From a virus, in the IMG/VR virus record IMGVR_UViG_3300027911_000064, positions 1-24,479 of that record: a stretch of 24,479 nt of DNA. One strand, written 5' to 3'. The position numbers and the translations under genes were made by a program. Below, piece by piece: positions 3,959 to 11,392 of this stretch. Each line of letters starts with the position of its first letter. Positions within the stretch are counted from its first letter, which is position 1. Under the pieces are notes generated by a model. That model worked only from the letters and a program-made list of their open reading frames with translations, did no database searches and was not told the DNA's origin.

Positions 3959-4002
3959 ACGTCAACTAAACCATCTTAATGGACACTTAAACATCGTTAT
4001 AG

Positions 4003-4203
4003 ATGGAATTACCTTTCCTAAAGAACAAAAATAACAACCAAGGCGGCTCTACAATAGAGCGAAAGGCTGAATCTACTCCGATGCTGCCTAAGGTAGCGGA
4101 AGAGATCTTAGACGCGTTTCATCGCAAGGATAATAAGGCTTTCAAGGAAGCTCTAGCAGCTTTCTTACGTTTAGTCAGGGAAGAGGATCAACAAGATGGA
4201 TGA
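4003..4203 (+). CDS. Small acidic helical protein, first member of a tandem pair
   Basis: The 66-residue product has an N-terminal MELPFLKNK segment, a low-complexity linker, and a charged helical domain (VAEEILDAFHRKDNKAFKEA and onward to REED). The helical half is clearly related to the whole of the next gene product (shared pattern L-x-x-V-x-x-E-x-x-x-A-F-x-x-K-D and A-L-x-A-x-x-x-x-x-x-E-E-D). No ribosome binding site is visible before ATG 4003. ATG 4081 is an in-frame alternative, but the MxLPFLKxK start is seen in small proteins at the same place in other podoviruses, so I keep 4003. Function is unknown; possibly a head-assembly helper. Confidence 0.65.
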   Translation: MELPFLKNKNNNQGGSTIERKAESTPMLPKVAEEILDAFHRKDNKAFKEALAAFLRLVREEDQQDG

Positions 4204-7206: not shown

Positions 7207-8103
7207 ATGCCTACTGTTAGTCCTATTGCCCGTGCAGTTATCGGTGCGACCTCAGAAGATATGTTTCGTCAACCAAGAGCCTCTATTACCCGTCCAACGG
7301 GTATGGACGTTCTAATCCCAAAGAAAGAAGAGCCTAAAGAGACTGGACAGCCTGTCATTACTGAAGAAACTAAGTCTGACGCAGTTACGTTATCACCTCA
7401 GTTGACGGCTTTAGCTAAGAAACAGCAGAAGTTGCAACAGGAAGTGCAAGCTCTCAGGGATAGAGAGGCTGCATTTACCACAAAAGAGGCGGACCATATT
7501 CCAAAGTCTTCTCTTATTGAGGGTGTTAAGAAGAACGCTCTCCAAACTATAAAAGACACCTTTGGAATGGATTACGAGGAATTGACTAATCTGATTCTAT
7601 CGCAAACTGGAGATCCAGATCCTGTCAAAGAACTCAAATCAGAGATCCAACAACTCAAAACCAATGAAGAACAGAGAGTCTCAAAGCAGTACGAGGCTAC
7701 TGTAAATCAATATAAGAAGGAAATTGAAGCGTTGGTTTCTACTGATGCCAATTTCGTCACTATTAAAGAAGAAGGTGCTCAAGAAGCTGTACTTCAACAC
7801 ATCTTAGACACTTTCAATAATGACAATGAGATTTTAACAGTTGAAGAAGCCTCAAAAGATATTGAGGAGTTTTTAGTCGAAGATGCGCTAAAGAAAACTG
7901 GTCTTACAAAGATCAAGTCTAAACTAGCTCCTCAAGACACTGAGAAGAAACTACCGCCTCCGTCGACAACGGCGGCAAATAAGCAAGCTCCTAAAACATT
8001 AACAAACTCGGTTGAGACTTCTCCTACTAGAAGTGTCAATCAGTTTCAACATCTCAGCATGAAAGAAAGGATTGCTCAGGCAATTCAACGTGCACAGAGA
8101 TAA
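7207..8103 (+). CDS. Scaffolding protein (putative)
   Basis: The assembly scaffold shapes the procapsid and is later lost. The 298-residue product is highly charged and mostly helical. It has a coiled-coil segment near residues 65-95 (LAKKQQKLQQEVQALRDRE), a second one near 140-175, a Pro/Thr-rich linker, and a short basic C-terminal helix (MKERIAQAIQRAQR) of the kind that binds coat protein in P22-like scaffolds. The call rests on composition and on its position directly between portal and major capsid genes, since scaffolds share little sequence. AGGGAG at 7197-7202 gives a good ribosome binding site. Confidence 0.75.
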   Translation: MPTVSPIARAVIGATSEDMFRQPRASITRPTGMDVLIPKKEEPKETGQPVITEETKSDAVTLSPQLTALAKKQQKLQQEVQALRDREAAFTTKEADHIPKSSLIEGVKKNALQTIKDTFGMDYEELTNLILSQTGDPDPVKELKSEIQQLKTNEEQRVSKQYEATVNQYKKEIEALVSTDANFVTIKEEGAQEAVLQHILDTFNNDNEILTVEEASKDIEEFLVEDALKKTGLTKIKSKLAPQDTEKKLPPPSTTAANKQAPKTLTNSVETSPTRSVNQFQHLSMKERIAQAIQRAQR

Positions 8104-8116
8104 GAAAGGATAGAAT

Positions 8117-9442
8117 ATGAGTTTCACAACTCCACAATATTCTAACTCTTCGGATAACGTACAAGTTTTAAAAGAACTTTATACGGATGATTCGTGGGTT
8201 ATGAAAGACTTAGTATACGCAGGTAACGCGGCTTTAGCTTTGTTGCCTAAAGATGAATCAGCTGATGGTATGGGTGGCAAAAGCTTCCCAGTGCCACTGA
8301 TCTATGGTTCTGGTCAAGGTCGTAGTGCGACTTTCTCACTTGCTCAAAGCAATCAAACTGCTCCGAGCCTTGGTGAGTTTTTCGTCACAACCATCTCCAA
8401 CTATCAATTAGTTACGATTGATAACCGTTTCATGGAAGCTACCAAGAATAACGTTTCGGCGTTTATGGATGGCGCTACAATGAACGTGAATACCGGAATT
8501 AACAACATCACCAATGACTTGGCGCATGACTTGTTTAATGACGGCTCTGGTTCTCGTGGAACTTATGGTCTTGGCGCTGGAAGCATTTCTTCTGGTGTGA
8601 TTACCCTAGATTCTGCTCAATCTATCGTTAACTTCGAAATTGGGATGAGCTTAGTCAGTTACTCTGTATCTGGAACGAGCGCTACTCAATCAACAGGTGC
8701 TCATCAAGGGTATGTTGTGGCTGTTGACTCAAGTGCTGGGACTGTTTCAGTGTCTGCTACTCAAGGTGGATCTGTCGCAACTCCTACTTCTTGGAGTTCT
8801 AGCTTTCCTTATCTAGCAGTAGAAGGTGACGTTAACTTCGCTTCTGGTGGTCTCGGTTCAAGCTTGATGCTTAAACTAGCTGGCTTCGGAGCTTGGATTC
8901 CTGCTGTTGCTCCTGGTGGATCTGATTCGTTTTTCGGTCAAAATAGATCGGCTAACGTTTCTCGTCTAGCTGGACTTCGTTTCAATGGCGCGAATGAAAC
9001 CATTGAAGAAGCTTTGATCGACGCTGCAGCTTTGGTTGCTCGTGAAAGATCTACTGCTGGTTATCCAGACTACGCTTTTATGAACTTCGTTTCCTATGCT
9101 GCTCTTATCAAGCAATTAGGAAGCCGAGTACAATATGTTGACGTTAAGCATGATGAAATCGATATCGCTTTCGAAGGTATTCAAGTCATCACCGCTTACG
9201 GCAAAGTAACTGTCCTCCCAGATCGTAACTGCCCTCCTCAAACCTGTTTCTTAATCGCTATGAAAACATGGAAATTGAGAACATTGGGACGCGCTCCTAA
9301 GATCCTTATTTACGGTTCTTATGATTCGAACCAAGGTCTCCGAGTTGGAACAGCCGATGCTGTCGAGATTCGTATTGGATATTACGGAAACCTTACTTGT
9401 AACGGCCCAGTAGCTAATTGTAATATCGCATTAAGCCAATAG
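8117..9442 (+). CDS. Major capsid protein
   Basis: The main shell subunit, presumably with the HK97 fold used by tailed phages. It is 441 residues, directly after the scaffold, with AAAGGA six bases before the ATG. Codon choice looks biased toward GCT, GGT, GTT and CGT, as expected for a highly expressed gene. Residues roughly 150-240 form a Ser/Gly/Val-rich beta segment (for example GYVVAVDSSAGTVSVSATQG), which I read as an insertion domain on the HK97 core, as known in other podovirus coat proteins. The C-terminus, RIGYYGNLTCNGP, is typical of P-domain strands. A strong terminator follows at once, consistent with the need for abundant coat mRNA. Confidence 0.9.
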   Translation: MSFTTPQYSNSSDNVQVLKELYTDDSWVMKDLVYAGNAALALLPKDESADGMGGKSFPVPLIYGSGQGRSATFSLAQSNQTAPSLGEFFVTTISNYQLVTIDNRFMEATKNNVSAFMDGATMNVNTGINNITNDLAHDLFNDGSGSRGTYGLGAGSISSGVITLDSAQSIVNFEIGMSLVSYSVSGTSATQSTGAHQGYVVAVDSSAGTVSVSATQGGSVATPTSWSSSFPYLAVEGDVNFASGGLGSSLMLKLAGFGAWIPAVAPGGSDSFFGQNRSANVSRLAGLRFNGANETIEEALIDAAALVARERSTAGYPDYAFMNFVSYAALIKQLGSRVQYVDVKHDEIDIAFEGIQVITAYGKVTVLPDRNCPPQTCFLIAMKTWKLRTLGRAPKILIYGSYDSNQGLRVGTADAVEIRIGYYGNLTCNGPVANCNIALSQ

Positions 9443-9450
9443 TTTAATCA

Positions 9451-9482
9451 GGGGCTTATTTAATGAGTAAGCCCCTTTTTTT
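9451..9482 (+). terminator. Rho-independent terminator after the capsid gene
   Basis: GGGGCTTA (9451-9458) pairs perfectly with TAAGCCCC (9468-9475) around a nine-base loop, followed at once by seven T residues (9476-9482). It starts nine bases after the capsid stop. Because no clear promoter is seen downstream, partial read-through is probably what feeds the rest of the morphogenesis genes, setting coat protein above the others. Confidence 0.9.
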
Positions 9483-9594
9483 ATGGACAAACGCGCATAT
9501 ACATAAGGGATCATCCTTAAAAGCCCCACGGATATTGCGCTAATCCCTGAGGTTACCCGTCGAAAGACGGCTACGCAGCGCAAAAGGATGCACC
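9483..9594 (+). ncRNA. Structured 5' leader of the gene at 9595 (candidate RNA element)
   Basis: The 112 bases hold no gene. A seven-base stem TTGCGCT (9535-9541)/AGCGCAA (9577-9583) encloses an inner hairpin CCGTC-GAAA-GACGG (9557-9570) with a GNRA tetraloop, leaving an asymmetric internal loop of 15 and 6 bases. The ribosome-binding stretch AAGGATG (9584-9590) follows directly and is exactly complementary to CATCCTT at 9512-9518. AAGCCCC at 9521-9527 also repeats the 3' arm of the terminator. I do not recognise a known riboswitch or ribozyme. Pairings are exact by eye; folding as a functional unit is inference. Confidence 0.5.
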
Positions 9595-10284
9595 ATGTCA
9601 ACAACTTGGATCAATAGAGGTCACTTCTATGTGCCTCATGTCACTCCTGTATTAGTCGATTGTAATTTTATCGTAGACTCTGCCAATGGCAATGGTCTAG
9701 GAATTAAAAGTCTAAAGGGGCAGGGCGTTCAAAACGTCTTCATGCACACTAGCTCTACGCCAGCAAAAGGGCCAAACGGGTATCTTAATCCAAATCCTGC
9801 CTCTGGTTATATCTTGGTGCAACTCGCAGATAATTTTAACCGATATTATGGTGGATTCTCTGGTTTCGTTTCTCCAGTATCTGGAACTCCGATTCTAGTA
9901 ACTACTGGAACGACCGCAGGGCTTGCTTATGTAATTGTAAGCGTTGGAACGACAAGTGTATCGCAATGGCAAAAACTTGGTTTACCTCCAGGCATCACCC
10001 CCGCTGTTGGAGTTTCATTCATCGCAAAAGATACAACCACCGCTACCGGAACTGGAGCAATTGAAGTCCCAGCCGCTACAGCATCTGGAGTTGATCATAT
10101 TGAGGTAATTGGAGATCCAAACTTGTCATTAGGCCCGATCCCAATGGGTGGATCTCCTAATGTGGGTGGGTGGATTGTATTAGCTTGTGAGGCTGCAACA
10201 GCTTTGACAGCTCCAGCAGATGGGTCTGTAGTTGGATTAGCATTCTATATGTCTCAATCAAGCGTTACAGTATTGGGAGAATAA
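9595..10284 (+). CDS. Capsid-associated structural protein, possibly decoration or head protein
   Basis: A 229-residue protein rich in Gly, Ser, Thr, Val and Ala with alternating hydrophobic residues, so probably all beta. It has no signal peptide or membrane segment. AAGGAT at 9584-9589 is the ribosome binding site. It is the first gene after the capsid terminator, the slot often filled by a head decoration or minor head protein, but I recognise no specific family. A segment with repeated TTGTT and GTTSVS patterns is low complexity. The 'decoration' role is inference from position and composition only. Confidence 0.6.
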   Translation: MSTTWINRGHFYVPHVTPVLVDCNFIVDSANGNGLGIKSLKGQGVQNVFMHTSSTPAKGPNGYLNPNPASGYILVQLADNFNRYYGGFSGFVSPVSGTPILVTTGTTAGLAYVIVSVGTTSVSQWQKLGLPPGITPAVGVSFIAKDTTTATGTGAIEVPAATASGVDHIEVIGDPNLSLGPIPMGGSPNVGGWIVLACEAATALTAPADGSVVGLAFYMSQSSVTVLGE

Positions 10285-10293
10285 AATATGTTT

Positions 10294-10332
10294 GGGGGGA
10301 AGTTTCCCTTCCATGGCTTCCCCCCGAAGCCA
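10294..10332 (+). promoter_or_regulatory. Two mutually exclusive hairpins before the adaptor gene
   Basis: GGGGGGAAG (10294-10302) pairs over nine bases with CTTCCCCCC (10317-10325) around a 14-base loop. The right arm can instead join TGGCTTC (10314-10320) with GAAGCCA (10326-10332) over a CCCCC loop. Only one can form at a time. No T-run follows, so it is not a standard intrinsic terminator. The adaptor ribosome binding site AAGGAG starts three bases later. A role in mRNA stability, processing or translation control is inference. Confidence 0.55.
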
Positions 10333-10345
10333 ACAAGGAGAGTGA

Positions 10346-11392
10346 ATGGCAATTCCAGGTGCACCTTTTAACGTAGTTCTTCAGACTGGAAATGCTCAAA
10401 ACCTAGTTTCATGGCCAATCGTATCTGGAGCAACAAGTTACTCAGTACAAAGATCAACAGACGGAATTACTTTCTCATCTCTTGGGACTTCTACAGAGCC
10501 ACAGTATTTAGATACGACTTGTCTAGTAGGTGTTTCTTATTTCTATCAGGTAGCTTCTGTTAATGCGTCTGGAACTTCTGGTTACTCAGCTAGTTATCCG
10601 GCTAGCATTGTTCCATGTTTACCTGGTCAGATTAATTTAGGGTATTTACGTTATCAGGCTCAGTTAAGAGCTGACATGCTTAACAGTGAGTTCATCACAA
10701 CTGATGAATGGAACATCTACATTAATAAGAGCATGTTTAACCTCTTCAATATTTTGACTACTAAATATGGAGAGGACTTTTTTGTAGCTAGTCCTTACAC
10801 ATTTTCAACCACTGGACAAAAGAACTATCCACTTCCAGATGGATCATCAACCTTTGCAGTCAATAACGTGACTCCTCCAGCAGTGTTTAAGCTTCTAGGG
10901 ATAGATTGCGGTGTAGCTGTAGGAAATAACGCTTGGGTGACCTTACCTCGTTACAATTGGATCGATAGAAACAGATTCATATACCCACAACTACAAGCGA
11001 ATGCTTTGGGAGTGTTCAATCTATCTTATCGTCAAATGGGTAATCAACTTTACTTCATTCCTAATCCAACAGCAGGGCAATATATTCAGATTTGGTATAT
11101 CCCAATCATGACTTCCCTTCTTAAAGACACTGACATGCTTAGCTTTTCAATATCTGGGTGGGATGAGTATGTTGTTGTAGACGCTGCGATTAAAGCATTA
11201 ACAAAAGAAGAAAGCTTTGAACAAGCTGAAGAACTTAAGGCAGAACGTACAATTATGATCGAAGCAATTGAGACGACTGCAGCTAATAGAGACGCAGGAC
11301 AGCCAAATACCATTTCAGATACAAGATCAAATACCGGATTCTACGATGGTGGTGGATTTGGTGGAGCAGGACATGGGATGGGGGGCTGGTGA
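10346..11392 (+). CDS. Head-tail adaptor (neck) protein with N-terminal FN3 domain
   Basis: Residues ~1-90 read as a fibronectin type III domain: PGAPFNVVLQTGNAQNLVSW, then SYSVQRSTDG, then FYQVASVNASGTSGYSA. Residues ~95-325 match the helical adaptor found in podovirus necks: LRADMLNSEFITTDEWNIYI, a YFIPNP strand, IWYIP, and GWDEYVVVDAAIKAL-KEES, followed by a helix ending ANRDAGQP. The last ~20 residues are Gly-rich. The adaptor sits between portal and the distal neck proteins. An FN3 domain on this protein is unusual and may face outward as a surface module. The ribosome binding site is AAGGAG, five bases before ATG. Confidence 0.75.
   Translation: MAIPGAPFNVVLQTGNAQNLVSWPIVSGATSYSVQRSTDGITFSSLGTSTEPQYLDTTCLVGVSYFYQVASVNASGTSGYSASYPASIVPCLPGQINLGYLRYQAQLRADMLNSEFITTDEWNIYINKSMFNLFNILTTKYGEDFFVASPYTFSTTGQKNYPLPDGSSTFAVNNVTPPAVFKLLGIDCGVAVGNNAWVTLPRYNWIDRNRFIYPQLQANALGVFNLSYRQMGNQLYFIPNPTAGQYIQIWYIPIMTSLLKDTDMLSFSISGWDEYVVVDAAIKALTKEESFEQAEELKAERTIMIEAIETTAANRDAGQPNTISDTRSNTGFYDGGGFGGAGHGMGGW

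Follow-up and report, generated by a model that had tools for sequence, protein, structure and literature searches.

The window, i.e. the whole analysed stretch of 24,479 nucleotides, comprises positions 1-24,479 of IMG/VR record IMGVR_UViG_3300027911_000064. Genes for the portal and the terminase large subunit lie upstream. An SU10-type major capsid protein gene (8117-9442, plus strand) is recognised by Pfam SU10_MCP (PF17236) with E 7.8e-6, above the cut-off, and remains outside the element described here. It is followed on the same strand by an intrinsic terminator at 9451-9482, which fold and sequence show as an 11 bp stem (9451-9461/9465-9475) plus a T run. Next comes an ORF, here called gene 2 (9595-10284, plus strand), for a beta-rich, probably virion-associated protein of 229 aa; it is the putative regulated gene, and its homologues are always found 3' of the element. 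Tblastn searches with capsid, gene 2 and terminase against 50,697 phage records yielded no match and bacterial and archaeal genome contigs no confirmed relative, so that the window is assigned to an uncultured phage lineage. Between gene 2 and the following gene (10346-11392) lies a strong inverted repeat without T run (GGGGGGAAG ... CTTCCCCCC, 10290-10330), directly before the ribosome site of the latter. The product of this following gene has an N-terminal domain weakly similar to fibronectin III/cytokine-receptor folds (Pfam, sub-threshold) and weakly matches a PHROG of major tail protein.

The gene-2 product has no Pfam match. One of 35 gene-2 family members marginally matches a PHROG for structural proteins of the virion (E 0.0098). 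The AlphaFold model is beta-rich, with a pLDDT of 66 at first and of 89 from a deeper alignment. Foldseek with this model returned nothing at E<=0.001 and matched no solved fold, and the gene-2 profile found no match among PDB sequences; its designation as probably virion-associated consequently rests on gene position and the predicted beta-rich fold. Homologues range from about 212 to 578 aa owing to large internal insertions (e.g. L011:7456-9021 compared with 9595-10284 in the window), with conserved N- and C-terminal parts.

Relatives from IMG/VR comprise 80 capsid loci and 67 gene-2 loci, and 69 distinct gene-2 leaders were compared. By sequence, three classes are distinguished: class C (n=28) with an invariant ACUAG, class B (n=8) and class A (n=4), the last consisting of the window, L002, L003 and L005. 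The distance between capsid stop and gene 2 start varies from 135 to 1977 nt, some genomes having tRNA genes or other DNA in between. The region directly 5' of gene 2 remains recognisable whatever this distance. In several relatives, but not in the window, tRNA genes (Asn, Gly, Pro, Met) separate the capsid gene from the gene-2 leader; they are on the strand of the element in L002 (7404-7478), L003 (7376-7457) and L005 (7386-7465), and on the minus, i.e. opposite, strand in L015, L033 and L057. Of the capsid relatives, 15 that have no gene 2 were examined; none shows the signatures of class A, B or C, apart from a single string match in L030 and another in L066, both apparently due to chance. 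An earlier note on this leader had linked it to the capsid gene. Since it stays adjacent to gene 2 across capsid gaps of 135-1977 nt and capsid relatives without gene 2 lack its signatures, the element belongs to gene 2 instead. In a scan with the class-C core DNA pattern, six viral contigs matched, all six with a class-C gene-2 leader; the class-B pattern matched 12 stretches, five of them gene-2 leaders and seven without the element in their flanks. The RNA thus appears to be dedicated to gene 2, the two DNA-pattern scans having provided no convincing copy elsewhere.

The leaders share a common plan, which reads from 5' to 3': a hairpin H1, the 5' strand of P2, the 5' strand of P3, the 3' strand of P2, a linker, the 3' strand of P3, the Shine-Dalgarno sequence and the ATG. 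An outer helix, P1, joins the H1 region with the Shine-Dalgarno region and encloses the H-type pseudoknot P2/P3. In the window, where all parts are on the plus strand, H1 is the hairpin TAAGG-GATCAT-CCTTA at 9504-9519 (stem 9504-9508/9515-9519), which is present in class A and excludes P1. The 5' strand of P1 is the anti-Shine-Dalgarno CATCCTT (9512-9518), invariant in the four class-A leaders and with covarying P1 partners in class C; its 3' strand AAGGATG (9584-9590), assigned from the sequence and the P1 tests, includes the Shine-Dalgarno AAGGA (9584-9588). P2 is formed by GGAT (9530-9533) and ATCC (9543-9546); two of its four pairs have changes in both strands in class A, and it covaries in classes B and C. 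A lower P2, taken from the RNA fold, pairs AGCC (9522-9525) with GGTT (9551-9554); 87.5% of its class-A cells are paired, and its class-B equivalent is 100% paired. P3, which completes the pseudoknot, consists of TTGCGCT (9535-9541) and AGCGCAA (9577-9583). The P2-P3 linker contains a hairpin with a GAAA tetraloop, CCGTC-GAAA-GACGG (9557-9570), which is variable and not conserved.

The earlier note had placed the 7 bp stem 9535-9541/9577-9583, the GAAA hairpin and AAGGATG where they are found here, and AAGGATG indeed adjoins the stem and complements CATCCTT. The 15/6 internal loop that it described has the given sizes (9542-9556 and 9571-9576) but is no plain loop, its 15-nt side carrying the 3' strand of P2 (9543-9546). 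P2 pairs across the stem and thereby makes the pseudoknot, which that reading missed, as it did H1. AAGCCCC (9521-9527) repeats an arm of the terminator (9469-9475) as noted, yet the repeat is probably coincidental, because AGCCC is kept in class A though the terminators differ.

Taken alone, the window sequence gives a modest signal of RNA folding (z = -2.0, with equal stability in 7 of 200 shuffles). For the L001 copy, which has the same leader as the window, the topology score is 45; its shuffles average 20.9, and none of 60 attains 45. This score is alignment-free and combines P1 with an H-type pseudoknot; over the 69 leaders it averages 47.5 compared with 33.5 for dinucleotide shuffles (60 per leader), and 41 of the 69 leaders are unmatched by any of their 60 shuffles. 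Leaders of other genes on these contigs (n=200) score as chance predicts (10 against 9.5 expected). Relatedness among sequences is not preserved in the shuffle controls, here and in the class tests. Some remote gene-2 leaders are without signal in this score (L006, L020, L042, L108, L115, L136 and L145).

A generic structure finder chose the wrong helices in several leaders (L002, L003, L006 and L007 among them), for which reason the classes were tested on anchored or MAFFT alignments. In class C, eight of nine P2 pairs are changed on both sides, with a covariation of 0.418 against 0.179 (sd 0.029) when shuffled, and covariation falls if the partner is slid along. Class-C P3 strands score 18.8 with their own and 10.7 (sd 0.73) with swapped partners, P1 strands 18.0 and 14.4 (sd 0.56), in both cases without any of 300 swaps reaching the own-partner value; H1 scores 13.3 compared with 10.6 (sd 0.40) in shuffles (0/200). 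In class B, changes affect both strands in 11 of 15 pairs (0.512 vs 0.200 in the score), and 16 of 400 swaps reach the own-partner score of its P1, a weak test. In class A, five pairs are changed on both sides (0.288 vs 0.140) and 95.5% of cells are paired, a share that falls to 47% or less on sliding. As class A shows no variation in P1, the argument for P1 in the window is one of analogy. Covariation in two stems had been named beforehand as a mark of a maintained structure. It is present in 9535-9541/9577-9583, i.e. P3, with three pairs changed on both sides among the four class-A sequences, and its counterpart in classes B and C shows strong covariation. The stem 9557-9561/9566-9570 fails in this respect: the GAAA hairpin is missing from L002 and L005, and L003 has a different one. 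As a core feature it was rejected, and it is regarded as a variable, dispensable insert.

Unpaired letters are conserved as well, namely ACUAG and C(A/G)N in class C, CAAG and UAAAUCU in class B, and AGCCC, CUAA and ACGC in class A. A further group of gene-2 leaders, class D (n=8; L032, L073, L093, L098, L099, L104, L106 and L114), has a long P1 such as GATATCCTC/GAGGATATT, a conserved GGTGAG, an extra inner hairpin and an apparently different 5' hairpin; its P1 scores 18.3 with own and 15.5 with swapped partners (0/400). The element classes may share one ancestor. On this comparative sequence evidence, the existence of the helices P1, P2, P3 and H1 is close to established. As the relatives keep the fold while changing its letters, a real and undescribed on/off control looks likely, and the comparison of leaders supports the earlier proposal of a structured cis-acting leader able to sequester the ribosome-binding site.

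H1 and P1 share paired nucleotides in 26 of the 28 class-C leaders, and by inspection CCTT is common to both in class A; because of these shared nucleotides the two are mutually exclusive. The masked state of the ribosome site proposed earlier is found in P1, not however as an alternative to the reported stem: P1 is compatible with P3, and its true alternative is H1. In the window the computed energies of the two states are comparable (-19.5 kcal/mol for the P1 state, -17.2 kcal/mol for the H1 state), and in class C they amount to about -4 to -10 kcal/mol for H1 and about -7 to -17 kcal/mol for the P1 duplex. The leaders possess what generally characterises a translational switch, a Shine-Dalgarno helix conserved through sequence change and a conserved, exclusive alternative helix. 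Their predicted anatomy is that of a bistable translational switch, in which H1 would be able to form first during transcription. Given that the pairing of P1 with the Shine-Dalgarno region covaries, P1 very probably represses translation. H1 would represent the open state.

Upstream of H1, a motif search located a promoter-like, genome-specific 15 bp motif, TGGACAAACGCGCAT (9484-9498, plus strand), with the consensus [T/C]GGNCAA-N5/6-CAT and variable letters specific to each genome. Two further places of the motif exist per genome, one shortly before the ATG of a small gene whose product begins with MELPF, here the MELPF gene (in the window 3980-3994, ATG at 4003) and one in the 5' part of a scaffold-like ORF (7344-7358). 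Copies within a genome are alike: CGGACAACCCGGCAT occurs three times identically in L003, and L005 and L039 agree in 15 of 15 positions. Matches of the motif to its own genome exceed those to other genomes both in the scaffold region (11.2 vs 9.2, sd 0.22, 0/400) and in the MELPF region (11.5 vs 9.7, sd 0.21, 0/300, leaving out three loci for which the searched stretch ran round to include the site itself). In its sequence the motif looks like a phage-specific late promoter that co-varies per genome. As it sits just upstream of H1, it suggests that the 5' end of the gene-2 mRNA may lie at or near H1. The MELPF copy ends 8 nt before the ATG without an intervening Shine-Dalgarno sequence (3980-4010), and the MELPF mRNA would be nearly leaderless if the motif is a promoter. 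A sigma-54 reading was rejected, the GG-GC spacing being 8 and not 10. The phage RNA polymerase profile PF00940 has no match in 15 records, nor in the control genomes.

Rfam 15 covariance models at the gathering threshold do not match the window, and in nine relatives of classes B and C they match tRNAs only; permissive searches gave sub-threshold chance matches only. The Rfam ribozyme models (HDV-like, pistol, twister, hatchet) have no match either. Compared by eye, HDV-like and pistol folds have only the H-type strand order in common with the element, which has no hairpin at the place of HDV P3 and no core match.

The product of phage T4 gene 32 is a single-stranded DNA-binding protein, and its leader pseudoknot is an autogenous operator with an A+U-rich ribosome site. 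According to a 2010 review, the T4/T2/RB69 gene 32 leader pseudoknot is possibly the only viral pseudoknot used in translational autoregulation; it is located 67 nt upstream and is the nucleation point from which gp32 binds cooperatively across an unstructured ribosome site (PMC3014915). The present 5' leaders of a phage gene likewise contain an H-type pseudoknot, with P2/P3 covarying in three classes, although the phages are unrelated. Here, however, the pseudoknot is enclosed by a Shine-Dalgarno-containing helix and accompanied by an alternative hairpin, the ribosome site is paired in P1, and gene 2, near the capsid gene, encodes a predicted beta-rich protein without database match. Alternative helices are a feature of the operator of rpsO, the gene of ribosomal protein S15. 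This operator also has a pseudoknot (PMC3014915). It resembles the element as a translational operator with a pseudoknot near the ribosome site and differs in gene and sequence, no Rfam leader model matching here at threshold. SAM-II and preQ1 riboswitches control access to the Shine-Dalgarno sequence by a compact H-type pseudoknot, whereas here a separate outer helix takes up this sequence, without Rfam match or metabolic gene. The Mu-gpT-DE motif, a name that occurs once in PMC7657543, is a structured phage RNA downstream of a Mu-like capsid gene. The present RNA is set apart from it by location, as it goes with the following gene, gene 2 being always adjacent and the capsid gene 135-1977 nt away; no Rfam family at all matches here, though the Rfam copy may not contain Mu-gpT-DE. 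The coat-protein operators of MS2 and Q-beta would be comparable in action, should the repressor here be a virion protein; these are single hairpins of RNA phages, in contrast to a pseudoknot plus switch in dsDNA phages with a putative repressor.

Taken together, the region is rather probably the 5' leader of a late transcription unit of its own, which begins with gene 2, and acts in cis as a bistable switch of translation, a reading drawn from comparative sequence data. H1 would fold first during transcription and trap the anti-Shine-Dalgarno segment, so that the Shine-Dalgarno sequence emerges free (ON). On opening of H1, the same nucleotides would pair with the Shine-Dalgarno sequence as P1, which closes around P2/P3 and prevents initiation (OFF). 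Linking the two strands of P1, the pseudoknot is probably the sensor: once bound by a partner, for which the gene-2 product or a different virion protein is the most plausible candidate, it would shift the balance towards P1 and so provide feedback control. That the ligand is a virion protein is a guess, favoured because the conserved unpaired letters change between classes while the fold persists.

P1 and the pseudoknot could also form a constitutive structural leader without ligand, which sets a low or delayed translation as a kinetic folding timer or shields the start site from terminator read-through transcripts. The P1/H1 overlap by itself can make such a timer, and a primary sequence that varies between classes while the topology stays is expected if only shape matters; the strongly conserved unpaired letters within classes nevertheless exceed the needs of a passive rate-setter, and we regard this as unlikely. 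The same letters would suit a riboswitch for a small molecule or ion, with the pseudoknot as aptamer for a metabolite that signals the cell state in late infection and H1/P1 as expression platform. Compact pseudoknot, exclusive helices and a sequestered ribosome site are indeed the typical layout of translational riboswitches, but each of the classes A, B and C conserves other letters, without a common aptamer core, which is unusual for one small ligand. Moreover, Rfam contains no matching riboswitch, and the element is convincing only before one virion-associated gene where metabolite riboswitches usually serve several, all of which makes a riboswitch decidedly improbable.

The promoter-like motif directly upstream of H1, which puts the structure at the mRNA 5' end, would agree with a stabiliser or processing element, in which H1 and the pseudoknot protect the late mRNA or recruit antitermination (as in HK022 put RNA) without direct effect on initiation. 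Such an element needs neither a P1 covarying with the Shine-Dalgarno region nor a place always directly before the start codon, both of which are observed here, and is considered very unlikely. A self-cleaving ribozyme, trimming the 5' end of the gene-2 mRNA or separating an upstream tRNA, might be suspected from the same-strand tRNA gene that precedes the element in L002, L003 and L005, as HDV-like ribozymes near phage tRNAs are known; with no tRNA in the window, opposite-strand tRNAs in L015, L033 and L057, no Rfam ribozyme match and no catalytic core common to the classes, its probability is minimal. Nothing points to an independent small RNA, which had been another early suggestion. For the ribozyme, metabolite-riboswitch and small-RNA readings there is no positive evidence.

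The preferred reading of a bistable switch before gene 2 may tentatively be extended, with less than even confidence, to an undescribed family of pseudoknotted operators in uncultured tailed dsDNA phages. In these, a virion protein, either the capsid protein or the product of gene 2, would bind the pseudoknot, flip H1/P1 and thereby match its own synthesis to head assembly, and co-evolution of RNA and protein would have led to lineage-specific classes with one fold. The structural proteins of tailed phages are required in strict ratios, and to our knowledge few RNA-level controls of virion genes are described from dsDNA phages. The leaders compared here represent a well-defined RNA family without Rfam entry, in which many divergent uncultured phages keep a predicted pseudoknot-plus-switch on one probably virion-associated gene. 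With their natural variants and compensatory pairs, they would make feedback control of phage head-gene expression directly testable.
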